From contig OZ023205.1 in the NCBI GenBank assembly GCA_963995525.1, positions 52,920,619 through 52,984,618 on the forward strand: a DNA stretch of 64,000 bases. The letters run 5' to 3'. The notes beneath the pieces were generated by a model. That model was not told the DNA's origin. It did no database searches and was given only the letters and a program-made list of their open reading frames with translations. A program made the translations under genes and the position numbers. Shown piece by piece: positions 24,740 through 44,044 of the stretch; the first letter of the stretch is position 1; each line of letters starts with the position of its first letter. This DNA comes from Escarpia spicata (Eukaryota; Annelida; Polychaeta; Sabellida; Siboglinidae).

Positions 24740-24866
24740 ATAATCATTTTTAAAAAACATCACGATTTTGTCGCGAAACAGCAGTCAGCTTTCTTGAAAG
24801 ACAAGAAAAGTCAGTTGGTTGAAGGAGAGGTGATAGTCACTGGTGATTTTGTAGAGAATTACTAAT
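24740..24866 (+). pseudogene. Uncharacterised GDFxENY/FSDG-family gene, segment before the array
   Basis: Plus-strand frame reads HHDFVAKQQSAFLKDKKSQL then VEGEVIVTGDFVENY and a TAA where the family has Ser. It runs on in the same frame into the first 63-bp unit as FVVQDAAQ. This is the part that normally directly precedes the sequence amplified in the array. The first unit also has TAA in place of its Tyr codon. The family is widespread in invertebrate genomes, unnamed and often multicopy; the Asp in GDF may be the first acidic residue of a transposase-like active site (inference). Confidence 0.75.
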
Positions 24867-27800
24867 TTGTTGTGCAAGATGCTGCACAGTGCTAACACTG
24901 GACGAATGACCAAGCAACCATACATCTGTTTGTTGTGCAAGATGCTGTACAGGGCTAAAACTGGACGAATGACCAAGCAACCATACATCTGTTTGTTGTG
25001 CAAGATGCCTCACAGGGCTATCACTGGATGAATGACCAAGCAACCATACATCTGTTTGTTGTGCAAGATGCTGCACAGGGCTACCACTGGACGAATAACC
25101 AAGCAACCATACATCTGTTTGTTGTGCAAGATGCCTCACAGGGCTATCACTGGATGAATGACCAAGCAACCATACATCTGTTTGTTGTGCAAGATGCTGC
25201 ACAGGGCTACCACTGGACGAATGACCAAGCAACCATACATCTGTTTGTTGTGCAAGATGCCTCACAGGGCTATCACTGGATGAATGACCAAGCAACCATA
25301 CATCTGTTTGTTGTGCAAGATGCTGTACAGGGCTAAAACTGGACGAATGACCAAGCAACCATACATCTGTTTGTTGTGCAAGATGCCTCACAGGGCTATC
25401 ACTGGATGAATGACCAAGCAACCATACATCTGTTTGTTGTGCAAGATGCTGCACAGGGCTACCACTGGACGAATAACCAAGCAACCATACATCTGTTTGT
25501 TGTGCAAGATGCCTCACAGGGCTATCACTGGATGAATGACCAAGCAACCATACATCTGTTTGTTGTGCAAGATGCTGCACAGGGCTACCACTGGACGAAT
25601 GACCAAGCAACCATACATCTGTTTGTTGTGCAAGATGCCTCACAGGGCTATCACTGGATGAATGACCAAGCAACCATACATCTGTTTGTTGTGCAAGATG
25701 CCTCACAGGGCTATCACTGGACGAATGACCAAGCAACCATACATCTGTTTGTTGTGCAAGATGCCTCACAGGGCTATCACTGGATGAATGACCAAGCAAC
25801 CATACATCTGTTTGTTGTGCAAGATGCCTCACAGGGCTACCACTGGATGAATGACCAAGCATCCATACATCTGTTTGTTATGAAAGATGCTGCACAGGGC
25901 TACCACTGGACGAATGACCAAGCAACCATACATTTGTTTGTTGTGAAAGATGCTGCACAGGGCTACCACTGGATGAATGACCAAGCATCCATACATCTGT
26001 TTGTTGTGAAAGATGCCTCACAGGGCTACCACTGGACGAATGACCAAGCAACCATACATCTGTTTGTTGTGAAAGATGCTGCACAAGGCTACCACTGGAC
26101 GAATGACCAAGCAACCATACATCTGTTTGTTATGTAAGATGCTGCACAGGGCTACCACTGGACGAATGACCAAGCAACCATACATCTGTTTGTTGTGAAA
26201 GATGCTGCACAGGGCTACCACTGGACGAATGACCAAGCATCCATACATCTGTTTGTTGTGAAAGATGCTGCACAGGGCTATCACTGGACGAATGACCAAG
26301 CAACCATACATCTGTTTGTTGTGCAAGATGCTGCACAGGGCTACCACTGGACGAATGACCAAGCATCCATACATCTGTTTGTTGTGAAAGATGCTGCACA
26401 GGGCTATCACTGGACGAATGACCAAGCATCCATACATCTGTTTGTTGTGAAAGATGCTGCACAGGGCTATCACTGGACGAATGACCAAGCATCCATACAT
26501 CTGTTTGTTGTGAAAGATGCCTCACAGGGCTACCACTGGACGAATGACCAAGCAACCATACATCTGTTTGTTGTGCAAGATGCCTCACAGGGCTATCACT
26601 GGACGAATGACCAAGCAACCATACATCTGTTTGTTGTGCAAGATGCCTCACAGGGCTATCACTGGACGAATGACCAAGCAACCATACATCTGTTTGTTGT
26701 GCAAGATGCCTCACAGGGCTATCACTGGACGAATGACCAAGCAACCATACATCTGTTTGTTGTGCAAGATGCTGCACAGGGCTACCACTGGACGAATGAC
26801 CAAGCAACCATACATCTGTTTGTTGTGAAAGATGCTGCACAGGGCTATCACTGGACGAATGACCAAGCATCCATACATCTGTTTGTTGTGAAAGATGCCT
26901 CACAGGGCTACCACTGGACGAATGACCAAGCAACCATACATCTGTTTGTTGTGCAAGATGCCTCACAGGGCTATCACTGGACGAATGACCAAGCAACCAT
27001 ACATCTGTTTGTTGTGCAAGATGCCTCACAGGGCTATCACTGGACGAATGACCAAGCAACCATACATCTGTTTGTTGTGCAAGATGCTGCACAGGGCTAC
27101 CACTGGACGAATGACCAAGCAACCATACATCTGTTTGTTGTGCAAGATGCTGCACAGGGCTACCACTGGACGAATGACCAAGCATCCATACATCTGTTTG
27201 TTGTGAAAGATGCTGCACAGGGCTATCACTGGACGAATGACCAAGCAACCATACATCTGTTTGTTGTGAAAGATGCTGCACAGGGCTATCACTGGACGAA
27301 TGACCAAGCATCCATACATCTGTTTGTTGTGAAAGATGCCTCACAGGGCTACCACTGGACGAATGACCAAGCAACCATACATCTGTTTGTTGTGCAAGAT
27401 GCCTCACAGGGCTATCACTGGACGAATGACCAAGCAACCATACATCTGTTTGTTGTGCAAGATGCCTCACAGGGCTATCACTGGACGAATGACCAAGCAA
27501 CCATACATCTGTTTGTTGTCCAAGATGCTGCACAGGGCTACCACTGGACGAATGACCAAGCAACCATACATCTATTTGTTGTGCAAGATGCTGCACAGGG
27601 CTACCACTGGACGAATGACCAAGCAACCATACATCTGTTTGTTGTGCAAGATGCCTCACAGGGCTATCACTGGACGAATGACCAAGCAACCATACATCTG
27701 TTTGTTGTGCAAGATGCCTCACAGGGCTATCACTGGACGAATGACCAAGCAACCATACATCTGTTTGTTGTGCAAGATGCTGCACAGGGCTACCACTGGA

Positions 27801-30800
27801 CGAATGACCAAGCATCCATACATATATTTGTTGTGAAAGATGCTGCACAGGGCTATCACTGGACGAATGACCAAGCAACCATACATCTGTTTGTTGTGCA
27901 AGATGCCTCACAGGGCTACCACTGGACGAATGACCAAGCAACCATACATCTGTTTGTTGTGCAAGATGCCTCACAGGGCTATCACTGGATGAATGACCAA
28001 GCAACCATACATCTGTTTGTTGTGCAAGATGCCTCACAGGGCTACCACTGGATGAATGACCAAGCATCCATACATCTGTTTGTTATGAAAGATGCTGCAC
28101 AGGGCTACCACTGGACGAATGACCAAGCAACCATACATTTGTTTGTTGTGAAAGATGCTGCACAGGGCTACCACTGGATGAATGACCAAGCATCCATACA
28201 TCTGTTTGTTGTGAAAGATGCCTCACAGGGCTACCACTGGACGAATGACCAAGCAACCATACATCTGTTTGTTGTGAAAGATGCTGCACAAGGCTACCAC
28301 TGGACGAATGACCAAGCAACCATACATCTGTTTGTTATGTAAGATGCTGCACAGGGCTACCACTGGACGAATGACCAAGCAACCATACATCTGTTTGTTG
28401 TGAAAGATGCTGCACAGGGCTACCACTGGACGAATGACCAAGCATCCATACATCTGTTTGTTGTGAAAGATGCTGCACAGGGCTATCACTGGACGAATGA
28501 CCAAGCAACCATACATCTGTTTGTTGTGCAAGATGCTGCACAGGGCTACCACTGGACGAATGACCAAGCATCCATACATCTGTTTGTTGTGAAAGATGCT
28601 GCACAGGGCTATCACTGGACGAATGACCAAGCATCCATACATCTGTTTGTTGTGAAAGATGCTGCACAGGGCTATCACTGGACGAATGACCAAGCATCCA
28701 TACATCTGTTTGTTGTGAAAGATGCCTCACAGGGCTACCACTGGACGAATGACCAAGCAACCATACATCTGTTTGTTGTGCAAGATGCCTCACAGGGCTA
28801 TCACTGGACGAATGACCAAGCAACCATACATCTGTTTGTTGTGCAAGATGCCTCACAGGGCTATCACTGGACGAATGACCAAGCAACCATACATCTGTTT
28901 GTTGTGCAAGATGCCTCACAGGGCTATCACTGGACGAATGACCAAGCAACCATACATCTGTTTGTTGTGCAAGATGCTGCACAGGGCTACCACTGGACGA
29001 ATGACCAAGCAACCATACATCTGTTTGTTGTGAAAGATGCTGCACAGGGCTATCACTGGACGAATGACCAAGCATCCATACATCTGTTTGTTGTGAAAGA
29101 TGCCTCACAGGGCTACCACTGGACGAATGACCAAGCAACCATACATCTGTTTGTTGTGCAAGATGCCTCACAGGGCTATCACTGGACGAATGACCAAGCA
29201 ACCATACATCTGTTTGTTGTGCAAGATGCCTCACAGGGCTATCACTGGACGAATGACCAAGCAACCATACATCTGTTTGTTGTGCAAGATGCTGCACAGG
29301 GCTACCACTGGACGAATGACCAAGCAACCATACATCTGTTTGTTGTGCAAGATGCTGCACAGGGCTACCACTGGACGAATGACCAAGCATCCATACATCT
29401 GTTTGTTGTGAAAGATGCTGCACAGGGCTATCACTGGACGAATGACCAAGCAACCATACATCTGTTTGTTGTGAAAGATGCTGCACAGGGCTATCACTGG
29501 ACGAATGACCAAGCATCCATACATCTGTTTGTTGTGAAAGATGCCTCACAGGGCTACCACTGGACGAATGACCAAGCAACCATACATCTGTTTGTTGTGC
29601 AAGATGCCTCACAGGGCTATCACTGGACGAATGACCAAGCAACCATACATCTGTTTGTTGTGCAAGATGCCTCACAGGGCTATCACTGGACGAATGACCA
29701 AGCAACCATACATCTGTTTGTTGTCCAAGATGCTGCACAGGGCTACCACTGGACGAATGACCAAGCAACCATACATCTATTTGTTGTGCAAGATGCTGCA
29801 CAGGGCTACCACTGGACGAATGACCAAGCAACCATACATCTGTTTGTTGTGCAAGATGCCTCACAGGGCTATCACTGGACGAATGACCAAGCAACCATAC
29901 ATCTGTTTGTTGTGCAAGATGCCTCACAGGGCTATCACTGGACGAATGACCAAGCAACCATACATCTGTTTGTTGTGCAAGATGCTGCACAGGGCTACCA
30001 CTGGACGAATGACCAAGCATCCATACATATATTTGTTGTGAAAGATGCTGCACAGGGCTATCACTGGACGAATGACCAAGCAACCATACATCTGTTTGTT
30101 GTGCAAGATGCCTCACAGGGCTACCACTGGACGAATGACCAAGCAACCATACATCTGTTTGTTGTGCAAGATGCCTCACAGGGCTATCACTGGACGAATG
30201 ACCAAGCAACCATACATCTGTTTGTTGTGCAAGATGCCTCACAGGGCTATCACTGGACGAATGACCAAGCAACCATACATCTGTTTGTTGTGCAAGATGC
30301 CTCACAGGGCTATCACTGGACGAATGACCAAGCAACCATACATCTGTTTGTTGTGCAAGATGCCTCACAGGGCTATCACTGGACGAATGACCAAGCAACC
30401 ATACATCTGTTTGTTGTGCAAGATGCTGCACAGGGCTACCACTGGACGAATGACCAAGCAACCATACATCTGTTTGTTGTGCAAGATGCTGCACAGGGCT
30501 ACCACTGGACGAATGACCAAGCATCCATACATCTGTTTGTTGTGAAAGATGCTGCACAGGGCTATCACTGGACGAATGACCAAGCAACCATACATCTGTT
30601 TGTTGTGAAAGATGCTGCACAGGGCTATCACTGGACGAATGACCAAGCATCCATACATCTGTTTGTTGTGAAAGATGCCTCACAGGGCTACCACTGGACG
30701 AATGACCAAGCAACCATACATCTGTTTGTTGTGCAAGATGCCTCACAGGGCTATCACTGGACGAATGACCAAGCAACCATACATCTGTTTGTTGTGCAAG

Positions 30801-31919
30801 ATGCCTCACAGGGCTATCACTGGACGAATGACCAAGCAACCATACATCTGTTTGTTGTGCAAGATGCCTCACAGGGCTATCACTGGACGAATGACCAAGC
30901 ATCCATACATCTGTTTGTTGTGAAAGATGCTGCACAGGGCTATCACTGGACGAATGACCAAGCATCCATACATCTGTTTGTTGTGAAAGATGCCTCACAG
31001 GGCTACCACTTGACGAATGACCAAGCAACCATACATCTGTTTGTTGTGCAAGATGCCTCACAGGGCTATCACTGGACGAATGACCAAGCAACCATACATC
31101 TGTTTGTTGTGCAAGATGCCTCACAGGGCTATCACTGGACGAATGACCAAGCAACCATACATCTGTTTGTTGTGCAAGATGCTGCACAGGGCTACCACTG
31201 GACGAATGACCAAGCAACCATACATCTGTTTGTTGTGCAAGATGCCTCACAGGGCTATCACTGGACGAATGACCAAGCAACCATACATCTGTTTGTTGTG
31301 CAAGATGCCTCACAGGGCTATCACTGGACGAATGACCAAGCAACCATACATCTGTTTGTTGTGCAAGATGCTGCACAGGGCTACCACTGGACGAATGACC
31401 AAGCATCCATACATCTGTTTGTTGTGAAAGATGCTGCACAGGGCTATCACTGGACGAATGACCAAGCAACCATACATCTGTTTGTTGTGAAAGATGCTGC
31501 ACAGGGCTATCACTGGACGAATGACCAAGCATCCATACATCTGTTTGTTGTGAAAGATGCCTCACAGGGCTACCACTGGACGAATGACCAAGCAACCATA
31601 CATCTGTTTGTTGTGCAAGATGCCTCACAGGGCTATCACTGGACGAATGACCAAGCAACCATACATCTGTTTGTTGTGCAAGATGCCTCACAGGGCTATC
31701 ACTGGACGAATGACCAAGCAACCATACATCTGTTTGTTGTCCAAGATGCTGCACAGGGCTACCACTGGACGAATGACCAAGCAACCATACATCTATTTGT
31801 TGTGCAAGATGCTGCACAGGGCTACCACTGGACGAATGACCAAGCAACCATACATCTGTTTGTTGTGCAAGATGCTGCACAGGGCTACCACTGGACGAAT
31901 GACCAAGCAACCATACATC
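24865..31919 (+). repeat. 63-bp (21-codon) tandem array, 112 units
   Basis: The unit begins GATGCTGCACAGGGCTACCA and ends TTTGTTGTGCAA. From the first GAT at 24878 to the last at 31871 is 6993 bp, exactly 111 x 63, so there is no net insertion or deletion in 112 units. In plus frame 2 each unit reads QDASQGYHWTNDQATIHLFV plus V. Units differ by a few recurrent substitutions (S/A, Q/K, T/M, T/S, silent C/T). Larger blocks are duplicated: rare variants recur at 2205 bp (35 units), 2016 bp (32 units), 1134 bp (18 units) and 378 bp (6 units). A TAA follows FVM at about 26136 and 28341. Minus strand and plus frame 3 are also open for long stretches. The unit is the in-frame continuation of GDFVENY-(S)-FVVQD of the surrounding gene. 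Confidence 0.97.
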
Positions 31920-32285
31920 CGTTTCTGCCTACTATCGAGAAGAAGGAGTAGTCAAGCACAAAACCTTTGTTGTCATCTCCAACTCAATGACACACAACAC
32001 AGTGGTCGTGCATTGCTACCAACGTCACCTGTTACCATTTCTGCATGACAACATGCCTCTTCACCATGTCATCTATTTCTCGGATGGAGATGCATATCAG
32101 TACAAGAATAGAAAGAACTTCTCCAACACCATATTCCACACAGAAGACTTTGATGGTGTTACTGCAGAGTGGCACTTCTTTGCCACGTCTCATGGCAAGG
32201 GCCCATGTGATGGTGTCGGTGGCACTGTGAAACGACTGGCTGTTAGAGCCAGCCTTCAAAAGCCATGTGATGACCAGATCCAGAC
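31900..32285 (+). pseudogene. Uncharacterised GDFxENY/FSDG-family gene, central conserved segment
   Basis: After the last unit (ATIHPF, the family's usual wording instead of ATIHLF) the frame shifts by one base and continues SAYYREEGVVKHKTFVVISN, then HHVIYFSDGDAYQYKNRKNF, EDFDGVTAEWHFFATSHGKG and PCDGVGGTVKRLAVRASLQ. FSDG and the Glu of AEWHFF, with the Asp of GDF upstream, could form a DDE-like triad (inference). The coding sequence is cut at 32285 by a hAT element and resumes in frame at 33612. Confidence 0.8.
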
Positions 32286-33603
32286 CAGACCTGGGGCCGA
32301 AGTACTCGATACTCATGTACTCGAGTACATTTTTGAAGTACTCGTACTCATGAAACTTATGGGTCATGGACTCGTACTCATACTCATTGTACTCAGATTT
32401 TACGAGTACATCTGAGTACTTTTTCAATATGTACTGGGGAAAATAAATATATTTGGTTATAAAAATTTTTTTAAACGTACCTAATATATATAAATGTTCA
32501 ACCATTTTTTTTATACTTTGTTAATTCTGATAGAATACCACCTTACCATCCCTACACATAGTACATTCTCATTCTCTGATAACCATGACTATGATACCCA
32601 AACATGGCAGCATCTTTTCCCAGCCAGAAACACCCTCTTCAGCAAACAATAATTGTAGGCTATCAGTTCAGGCCATAAACCTGTTTGTTTAATTAAGCCA
32701 CCAGGATGTCCATAAAGAGCCAGTTAGCAGTTAACCAACCAATTAGACAGGAAATGCCTTTGATGTAGTCTGGAGACCATGCCACTTGACAGTGGCTGAC
32801 AGTGCTAACTGCTAAGAACAAGAAATGCCAGTCTTCCTCTGCAGAAGTAAGGTAGCTCAAGTCAGGCTGCCTCCTACACTAGTATAATCCCATGCCAGCA
32901 GCCTGGCTAAGAAAGTCCAAAGGGGATGCTGAGCCTGTTATGTGGACATGTGCTAACCCTCTCAACAACTAGTAGTCTATGATCAGAAAATATAAACTGC
33001 AAACTTATAATATCAGCAGATTGCTGATTGTAGAGGTGAGAGAATACCTCAGTCAGCCATGTATTACAGTGACCCACTGCAGTTCTGAGGTTTCCAACTC
33101 TGGCTCAGTTGGTCCCTCACCATCTCAGCATTCCGGCCTCATCAGCCCCAGTTGAAAGGGTATTTAGCATAGCCGAGAAAGTATTCTGCCCTGAACGGTG
33201 CAGCCTGAAAGACTCAACCTGTGAACAACTCATGTTCATTCGGTGCAATGGCAAATAGATGATAAGATCATAGGATGCCACTGAAATGAATGCCATTGAA
33301 GTGAATTTCATTGTTGATGAAATAGAGGTTGTTCTTAGTTTTCCTCATAACAAATGTATCAACTGCCATTGCATATTCACCTATGTTGTGTTATATCATT
33401 TAGATTAATTAAATAATTTAAAAATACGTTATTATTTAATATTTATATATTTTTTAATGTACTTGTACTTTTACTCGTACTCGTGAGAATGTACTCGTAC
33501 TTGTACTCGTACTCAGCTTTTAGCAATGTACTCGTACTCATCCATCATCAAAGTACTCGTACTCGTACTTGTACTCATGAAAATGTACTCGGCCCCAGGT
33601 CTG
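32286..33603 (+). mobile_element. hAT transposon, decayed, 8-bp target duplication
   Basis: Perfect 15-bp terminal inverted repeats CAGACCTGGGGCCGA (32286-32300 and complement at 33589-33603). The perfect 8-bp target duplication ATCCAGAC lies at 32278-32285 and 33604-33611. Removing the element restores the host reading frame (DQIQTPMDL). Subterminal regions are packed with GTACTCGTACTC-type repeats. The C-terminal dimerisation domain of a hAT transposase survives at 33142-33258 (SAPVERVFSIAEKVFCPERC, then EQLMFIRCNGK and stop). The rest of the transposase is gone, so the copy is non-autonomous. Confidence 0.93.
33100..33258 (+). pseudogene. hAT transposase C-terminal dimerisation domain fragment
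   Basis: LSIPASSAPVERVF and CEQLMFIRCN are hallmark words of the hAT C-terminal domain. Only the last ~50 codons remain, closed by TAG at 33256. Confidence 0.85.
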
Positions 33604-34144
33604 ATCCAGACACCAATGGACTTGTTTGTGTGGGCCTCTGGCAACTTGCTGTCCATCAAAGTCATGTCTGTTGACACAGATGAAATCACAGATGAAGAAG
33701 TTAAGTTACGGAACAGATATGCTGATGCTGTTGCAGTAACAGGAACACAACGACTGCACTCCTTCGTTCCTGTTCGAGGATCACGATCTTTGATGGAAGT
33801 GCGCGAGTTCTCAGCAGACACAGAACAGGAGATCATGAAGATTACAAATAAACGAGAACTGTTAGGAGAGGCTGACATTGACGGATCATACATTACGTGC
33901 ACGTATGATGGACAACTGGTGGCTAGCCTATGTGTTGAAGGTGATGCCTATAACCAATGAAACATAAGTCAGCTTTCTTCATCCAGCCAGACCTTCGCCT
34001 ACCTTCACCTTCCCAAGATGCCTTGATGAGCTGATCGTTGGTCAGGATCAGATCTTGACCACTGCTGAACCACTGACTTCAACAGGGCGAGTCTATCAAC
34101 TCAATGCATCAGAAATGAAAGACGCTACTCTTCTTATGAACAAG
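33604..34144 (+). pseudogene. Uncharacterised GDFxENY/FSDG-family gene, C-terminal segment
   Basis: Resumes after the hAT element as QTPMDLFVWASGNLLSIKV, DAVAVTGTQRLHSFVPV, EADIDGSYITCTYDGQ. A one-base shift at about 33915 then gives WWLAYVLKV, and further shifts SFLHPARPSPTFTFPRCLDE, GQDQILTTAEPLTSTGRVYQ and LNASEMKDATLLMNK before a possible donor (AAG|gtaatc) at 34145. Motif order (YDGxWW, HP, TGR.Y) matches family members, so the C-terminus is complete but frameshifted. Confidence 0.75.
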
Positions 34145-34904
34145 GTAATCCAAAAATTATACCACTTTATAGAATAATCCTTTGTTTAGTACTGGCTGGC
34201 TATGGGCAGTGGTGAGTGGTATATATCATATATATATATATATCATATGATATATATATATGATGCCCTTTCTGTGTGATAAGTGTGAAGCAAGTGGTAT
34301 CCTAAAAATGTGGATATAGGTATGTGGTTGAAAGTGTAACCAATGTGGACACCACATGTTACACGTGCAGCCACAAGTTTGCAGCCCCCTATCAGTGCGA
34401 CACATGGTATCCCATCATTGTATAGTTGGATCCAAGTAATACAAAAATTTAACTATGCCAGGATGCATCAAATAGAATGCATGTTGCTTCATTCACAGCT
34501 TGGCACTAAAAACAAATTTACCCTGTTTCCATGTCACAAATTAGGCTTGCCACATCAAACTTCTGTGACGAGACATGTGCACTTACAAATAAACAGTTGC
34601 TACATCAAGGCTACTTTTATGTCTAATATATCTATTTGGTGTGAAATGCTTGCCATTGTTGGCAGCAATTATTGTAAACAATGTACTTGAAATCAACATG
34701 CTAAAAGGTTTGCCAACTCATGAACTTACCCATATATATCATATAGAATTAGTATAATTTTAAACAAACATTCTTCGTTAACCAGTCCCAAAGACTGGAT
34801 ACTTGCTATTATATCTTTTTATTATATTGATAATAAAGGCGCTCATGGCATTGTCATGAGCGTCTCTATGGCGTATACTATTGCATTCCAAATAAGTGTA
34901 CAGG

Positions 34905-35075
34905 TCGGAATAACAGTATAGGGTGGACATGCCTCGGAATTTTAATAAGAATATAGCTCGGAATAACATAGTTAGGGCGGAAATATCTTGAAATTGTAAT
35001 AAGAGTATAGGGCGGAATATTGGTATAAGGTGGAAATTTCTCGAATTTGTAATAAGAGTACAGGGCAGAAATTTC
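34905..35075. repeat. Degenerate ~54-bp tandem repeat
   Basis: Three to four units, each with GGGCGGAAT/A and GTAATAAGAGTATAG-like words. Confidence 0.6.
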
Positions 35076-42654: not shown

Positions 42655-43654
42655 TGCTAATTCTCACTCATTTCTTTGTTCTTCTTTAATTCTTTTCTGT
42701 CTTCAATCTTAGTGTGTCTTTGCTTATCCATGGTTGTTTCTGCCTCCTCTTTGTGGTGTGTTTGTTGGCTGATTCCATAATGATGTTCCTAATTTCTACT
42801 GCCAACTCCTCCGGTTCCTTCTCTTCAGCTACTGCCTGTAATATTTCGAAACGATTCATAACCTCTACACGGTATCCTTCTTTGATATCACTGACGTCAT
42901 ACCTCACTATCTCTTTCCCTCTCTTCGCCTTTCTTAATTTTATCGTAATCTTGGCGCTTAACAATTCATGGTCAGAGCCACAATCGGCTCCCCGTAATGC
43001 ATTTGCGTTAAACACAGACGTCCTCCGTCGTTTTTGTATCAATATAAAAAGTCGATTTGATTTCTGTTCCGACCATCTGGTGTTGTCCAAATGTTCAATC
43101 TTCTTTGATGTTGTTTGAAGAACGTATTAGTGATCATCAGTTCATTCTCTATGATAAACTGAAGTAGTCTATCTCCTCTCCCATTTCTCTCATATTTCGC
43201 CGATATTTCCATTCTCTTCTTCGTTTTGACAACTGCCAACTTTTATATTGAAATTGCCCATTAGTAGTGCCATGTTTCTCTTATTTACCTCGTCAACTGT
43301 TCGGTGTAGTGTATCATAAAAAGTTTCTGTTAGGTCATCATCTGCGGTGCTCGTTGATGTATAAATTTCAATACATGTTATATTCGTGGATTTTGCTCGT
43401 ATTCGTATGATAATAATTATGTCGTTGACTGGATTGTATCCTAATAGTGCATGTCCAGTTTTCTTTGACAGATAGAACGCACCACTACTCATTCCTGGTA
43501 TAGTTGCTCCTGAGTATACAAACTTTCCTCCTGAATCCGGGCGAAAATATCCTTGTCTGACCAAGATGTGTTTCGCAATCCCTAATATATCTACCCCATA
43601 TCTTTCTGCTTCTGATGTTACCATTTGTAATGTCCCTCGACTCGTGTTTCTCAT
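42655..43654 (-). mobile_element. RTE-like non-LTR element, endonuclease part
   Basis: Minus strand: RGTLQMVTSEAERYGVDILG, PDSGGKFVYSGATIPGMSSG, YLSKKTGHALLGYNPVND, TSTADDDLTETFYDTLHRTV, LLMGNFNIKVGS (family word GDFNAKVG), QRRLNIWTTPDGRNRNQIDF and GADCGSDHELLSAKI, the endonuclease motifs in order. One or two frameshifts lie near 43190 and 43070. The linker follows (EGYRVEVMNRFEILQAVAEE, KRRQKQPWISKDTL). No RT follows. Its 5' end merges with the 38-bp repeat. Confidence 0.85.
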
Positions 43655-44044
43655 GTTACCATTTGTAATGTCCCTCGACTCGTGTTTCTCATGTTACCAT
43701 TTGTAATGTCCATCGACTCGTGTTTCTGATGTTACCATTTGTAATGTCCCTCGACTCGTGTTTCTGATGTTACCATTTGTAATGTCCCTCGACTCGTGTT
43801 TCTGATGTTACCATTTGTAATGTCCCTCGACTCGTGTTTCTGATGTTACCATTTGTAATGTCCCTCGACTCGTGTTTCTGATGTTACCATTTGTAATGTC
43901 CCTCGACTCGTGTTTCTGATGTTACCATTTGTAATGTCCCTCGACTCGTGTTTCTCATGTTACCATTTGTAATGTCCCTCGACTCGTGTTTCTCATGTTA
44001 CCATTTGTAATGTCCCTCGACTCGTGTTTCTCATGTTACCATTG
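43613..44044. repeat. 38-bp minisatellite, about 11 units
   Basis: Unit ATGTTACCATTTGTAATGTC continuing CCTCGACTCGTGTTTCTG/C, nearly perfect (one CCCTCG to CCATCG change and G/C at the last base). The first unit is also the 5' codons of the adjacent endonuclease relic (minus strand NTSRGTLQMVT), so the array arose from that sequence. 38 is not a multiple of three. Confidence 0.95.

Follow-up and report, generated by a model that had tools for sequence, protein, structure and literature searches.

In coding minisatellites of animal genes, a unit of whole codons is amplified inside a reading frame. Tandem arrays that derive from transposons are well known (PMC9659126), and the published account of the Chenopodium satellite CficCl-61-40 traces it to a fragment of tnp2 from Jozin, a CACTA-like transposon (PMC7320549). 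Here we consider an array of 112 units of 63 base pairs (bp) on the plus strand of a 64,000-nucleotide stretch from the siboglinid annelid Escarpia spicata (assembly GCA_963995525.1, contig OZ023205.1, positions 52,920,619 to 52,984,618 of the forward strand), hereafter the window. A preliminary description had taken this array for an in-frame amplification of 21 codons of the gene in which it lies. We think it very probable that the array consists of tandem copies of one predicted transposase-coding stretch inside a broken transposon; it likely began with a duplication between two TTTGTTG motifs and then grew by unequal exchange and by duplication of blocks. The array lies in a decayed copy of a DNA transposon with further insertions, rather than in a gene of the host.

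The window's own genome (1,060,511,957 bases in 1,097 contigs) was the only one searched for the unit. With two units as the query and very common words skipped, there were 94 matches grouped as 18 loci, and all 18 first-look candidates were scored. Seventeen of these loci (L009-L025) lie outside the window, on several chromosomes. Transposon flanks are common to all 18, with L023 and L024 having short flank pieces only. Compared with each other, the copies represent a repeat of about 3.3-3.5 kb with the ends GGGTGATTCCATGTCAAATCAATCAG and its inverted form (inverted ends GGGTGATTCCATGTCA...). Both inverted ends are present in 8 of the 14 copies scanned, and six of these eight have a perfect 4-bp target duplication (TTGT, TATT, AAAT, ACAA, CTCT and ATTT); of the other two, L011 has one mismatch in the duplication and L025 has no 4-bp one. 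Given the inverted ends and 4-bp target duplications, the element is a cut-and-paste DNA transposon.

The number of units differs greatly among the loci, from 112 in the window to 33 in L013, 10 in L014, 5 in L011, 3 each in L009, L010, L015 and L016, and 2 in L012. The other nine of the 18 (L017-L025) have a single unit, at its proper position within the gene. The monomer is homologous to one part of the transposon and sits in place between the transposon flanks. Among eight distant relatives from the same genome, the flanks adjoin one unit in four (L028-L031), and in the other four (L026, L027, L032 and L033) this region is too damaged for reading in one frame. A search of animal proteins agrees with this: 150 of 730 candidates were scored, 100 of the 120 animal proteins listed have the DF.EN motif, and in those 100 the narrow HW..Q pattern occurs once in 61, not at all in 39 and twice in none. 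That the flanks adjoin a single unit in relatives is thus supported by the single-unit transposon copies, the distant relatives and the animal proteins. An independent satellite picked up by transposon copies could explain unit arrays at many sites on several chromosomes. However, we consider it very improbable, because the same transposon flanks occur at all 18 loci, nine of these have one unit in the gene position, and the unit is homologous to the conserved segment of the protein family, in the proper place. A satellite unrelated to the gene, which the preliminary description had itself raised, is therefore not what we see, and the genome search, run with very common words skipped, showed no long unit array without a transposon flank. 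Two of the single-unit loci, L023 (at about 4938) and L024 (at about 4894), are short derivatives formed by deletion, with the end of their one unit fused to the region at the transposon's 3' end. In L032, on the minus strand, the frame downstream of the transposase-like frame is a PPTQHTKE-like repeat run.

Tandem Repeats Finder reports one tandem array at 24866-31924 with a period of 63, 112.0 copies, 95% matches, 0% insertions or deletions (indels) and a score of 12242. Cutting every 63 bp gives 112 contiguous units at 24866-31921, with 22 different sequences among them, so that the number and length of units first described hold good. The unit reads FVVQDAAQGYHWTNDQATIHL, with variants, in the frame of the upstream GDFVENY. 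This frame had been thought to run into unit 1 and the gene to continue past the last unit. GDFVENY does lie directly upstream and in the unit frame, but a TAA at 24863-24865 separates the two. Likewise, the array is indeed followed by HPF and, at some distance, by codons for YYREEGVVKHKTF, but the unit frame closes at a TAG at 31949-31951, 3' of unit 112. YYREEG... and YYREEGVVKHKTF are out of the unit frame because, compared with single-unit copies (L019 and L020, for example), the window copy is 1 base shorter 3' of unit 112. Within the array, units 1, 2, 8, 21 and 56 (5 of the 112) have in-frame stops.

That the array belongs to a living gene and encodes a giant repeat domain, its 21-residue units read as protein, was one of two possibilities raised in the preliminary description. 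It would fit with a unit length that is a multiple of 3, with the absence of indels from the 112 units, and with open stretches of 734 and 1202 amino acids in the unit frame. However, a long open frame is a weak sign of protein here, given that 63 is a multiple of 3 and that the minus strand is equally open, for 1197 amino acids over the array stretch; each frame over the array is open or closed for long stretches. Relative to the common unit, and with one count per locus over 15 loci (L023, L024 and L025 left out), there are 82 substitution types, of which 53 are non-synonymous, 22 synonymous and 7 stop, where 54.8, 22.2 and 5.0 would be expected under neutrality. The units are without coding constraint, stops included, and stops occur in the other arrays too, the 7 stop types being counted over all loci. 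The copy is also truncated and carries other insertions. Since the frame is interrupted within the array as well as at each of its edges, and substitutions are neutral, we reject a giant repeat protein: a living gene is extremely improbable, and no such protein would come from the array. What remains of the idea of an expanded exon segment is that 21 codons were amplified in place, though in a dead transposon copy and not in a living exon, and "coding minisatellite" is correct for the origin of the array but not for its present state. For gene prediction, the case is a caution that where the length of a repeat unit is divisible by three, a long open frame does not indicate a protein.

The transposon copy in the window starts at 24754, and other copies reach further left; the more upstream part of the element, with four copies as the query, had no match elsewhere in the window. 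On the plus strand, a 5' transposase-like remnant (HDFVAKQQSAF...GDFVENY and the TAA) at 24754-24865 is 86-95% identical to 16 copies by blastn. Beyond the array, the transposase-like gene goes on in the 3' direction at 31922-32285 on the same strand (YYREEG...FSDGDAYQYKN...HGKGPCDGVGGTVKR), in a frame that differs from that of the units. Nested behind it at 32286-33603 is an insertion absent from the other copies, with 13-bp inverted ends CAGACCTGGGGCC and an 8-bp duplication ATCCAGAC at 32278-32285 and 33604-33611, which we take to be hAT-like from its 8-bp duplication and CAG ends. This insertion is non-autonomous, with an interior rich in GTACTCGTACTC. Transposon sequence appears again on the plus strand at 33604-34258 (about 92% identical to several copies), is followed by a foreign stretch at 34259-34731 that the other copies do not have, and ends with a final piece on the plus strand at 34732-34878, with no 3' inverted end after it. 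Just past the end of this fragment is a 53-bp tandem repeat of 3.3 copies (34891-35064), and a second minisatellite in the window, at 43610-44043, has 11.4 copies of 38 bp that are 98% alike.

A structure prediction for a relative suggests that the encoded core has the RNase H-like fold with three acidic residues by which DDD/E transposases are defined, and VIA-align matched the model to integrase cores. In this model the unit would be the hairpin that links strand 1 to strand 2 in the RNase H-like core, just after the first conserved Asp. The intact relative L030 matched no Pfam family and had no PDB relative by sequence, and among short pieces from the window the two flanks matched no Pfam family and the units gave only repeat-like chance matches. 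The transposase-like core of the family proteins likewise matched no Pfam family. Some of these proteins have an Ulp1-type peptidase domain (PF02902; P0022, P0033, P0035, P0037, P0038, P0044, P0094 and P0118), and one has an OTU domain (PF02338; P0111). Transposons of the Sola superfamily, including Sola2, are described as having 4-bp target duplications, mostly A+T rich, and a transposase with three conserved Asp (PMC10741241, PMC3627910). The element resembles them in the 4-bp target duplication and the three conserved Asp, a likeness by description and not by sequence, and the libraries searched yielded no protein named as a Sola transposase. We rejected the Kolobok superfamily, for which a TTAA target duplication is reported (PMC9587614), since none of the six perfect duplications found here is TTAA.

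The edges of the unit point to how the first duplication may have occurred. Single-unit copies run ...TACTCA-TTTGTTGTGCAAG...CATCCG-TTTGTTGCCTACTATCG..., and TTTGTTG is present at both unit edges, 63 bp apart, in all four single-unit copies scanned (L018, L019, L020 and L022), with a match of up to 9 bp in L020. The source of the motif is two FV codon pairs, SFVVQ and HPFV, which are 21 residues apart. Misalignment between two TTTGTTG motifs gives exactly the 63-bp unit seen, and this pair was likely the seed of the first duplication. In this scenario, the first tandem duplication would have arisen by such misalignment in one lineage, a copy already with two or three units would have been spread by transposition in trans, and single insertions would later have expanded or shrunk independently, with growth by unequal exchange and block duplication. 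Hairpin-driven slippage was considered and rejected, as folding of the unit was no stronger than that of shuffled sequences (z of -0.10, 0.30 and -0.98 for three units). In five C3 loci (L034-L038) that are 93-99.9% alike, the transposon breaks off precisely where the unit would begin, at its first base, and gives way to other DNA; no match to a resumption of the transposon was found in 2.8 kb behind one of the five (L039). These loci raise the possibility that breakage occurs at the edge of the unit.

Copies with two or three units carry their own target duplications, four different ones among them, which points to spread of the duplicated seed by transposition. In a tree built from the flanking sequence of 16 among the 18 copies (L023 and L024 were left out for too few columns), the change between one and more units takes 3 steps, and as few were obtained in 3.55% of 2000 shuffles. 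The arrays likely grew separately at single sites, given that the majority variants are each confined to one array: 10C>A is found in 38 and 18T>C+19G>T in 55 of the 112 window units but in none of the 33 units of L013, whereas 25G>A (17 of 33), 9G>A (12 of 33) and 44A>G (10 of 33) are found in L013 and in none of the window units. The mean distance between units, out of 63 positions, is 3.0 within the window array, 3.6 within L013 and 4.7 between them.

In the window array, an exact run of 2,275 bp recurs on the plus strand at a shift of 2,205 bp, or 35 units, with one copy at 25715-27989 (units 15-49) and the other at 27920-30194 (units 50-84). Before this block duplication the array likely had 77 units. 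A second exact block, of six units, lies near the left edge, where units 2-7 equal units 8-13. Rolling-circle copying of an excised circle, or break-induced replication, could have duplicated 35 units at once, with 2,275 bp identical, and also the exact six-unit block. However, unequal sister exchange yields such blocks too, and we consider these other routes unlikely. The identity of the two 2,275-bp copies could also indicate an error of assembly, affecting the total of 112 units or at least the doubling of the 35-unit block. This is rather improbable, given the differing units at both edges and between the blocks and the arrays of 33 and 10 units elsewhere.

Several observations weigh against an origin of the array by motif-seeded duplication of a transposase segment and later separate growth. 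The window copy has neither inverted end. In the structure model, the loop at 365-371 has a predicted local distance difference test score (pLDDT) below 50, and Foldseek found no match in the PDB at E 0.001 or better, the best being 4.4e-3. Direct repeats of at least 7 bp within 15-250 bp number 101, 20, 18 and 83 pairs in four copies (52.5, 14.9, 16.7 and 47.4 in base shuffles of the same copies), and direct repeats longer than the edge motif occur without expansion. Because short direct repeats are common in the element, TTTGTTG fits as the seed without proving it. Rarer variants (38C>T, 24G>A, 43G>A and others) are common to the window and L013, and 52A>T is common to the window, L014 and L016; part of the diversity among units may therefore be older than the separate growth. 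Several nodes of the tree are weak (36-73% support), and gains and losses of units are therefore indistinguishable and the direction of single changes unfixed. Finally, there are no indels in the 174 units of nine arrays (the window and L009-L016), for which this origin gives no account.

The same 174 units have 51 distinct substitution types (72 locus-level). With 0.16 (0.13) indels per substitution in the flanks, simple stretches left out, 8.3 (9.5) indels would be expected in the arrays, and the probability of finding none is 2.6e-4 (7e-5; Fisher 0.0014 (0.0004)). More than half of the flank indels are from the non-coding left part, and the coding parts have about 0.10 per substitution. Selection on the frame is excluded as the cause, because of the in-frame stops and the neutral spectrum. 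The copying process may instead drop out-of-register units, the true founder units may be few, so that the counts are less independent than assumed, or sequence polishing may have smoothed the units. The absence of indels amid neutral substitutions is a small, testable puzzle on how arrays are copied.

It is possible, though we are more inclined to doubt it, that the transposon family scatters a ready minisatellite seed, the duplicated hairpin of the transposase core, with each landing starting a separate growth and a register-keeping copying process purging units of odd length. If so, the genome would hold a dated series of 1, 2, 3, 5, 10, 33 and 112 units from which a law of satellite growth could be read. 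A graded series of one array, caught at nine stages in insertions that can be dated by their flanks, makes models of satellite birth (first duplication, seed spread, block growth and loss) testable on one family.

A literature search gave no paper that treats coding minisatellite, transposase, microhomology and array expansion together, though this does not show that none has been published. The whole-codon unit is shared with the coding minisatellites of animal genes, but here the frame is broken and the substitutions are neutral. As described for Drosophila virilis, Tetris and its TIR-220 are similar in that tandem units lie inside a DNA transposon and grow within the element, with few units in most copies and long arrays of up to 66 in some; however, those units are non-coding and in the terminal inverted repeats, and here they are in the catalytic core region (PMC4079207). 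From its published description, CficCl-61-40 is similar in that a short transposase-coding piece serves as the starting monomer (about 40 bp there, 63 bp here) and that arrays are still joined to incomplete transposase, with lengths that vary by contig, up to 94 monomers (PMC7320549). It differs in being a genome-wide major satellite from a plant CACTA element, whereas the transposon here is of another type and at most 18 loci were found. Unlike CficCl-61-40 as described, the Escarpia family has intermediates of 2, 3, 5, 10 and 33 units in whole, dated insertions, and a 7-bp edge motif (PMC7320549). By this comparison, CficCl-61-40 is the closest precedent and the principle is the same, and the particular merit of the Escarpia family lies in its graded series.
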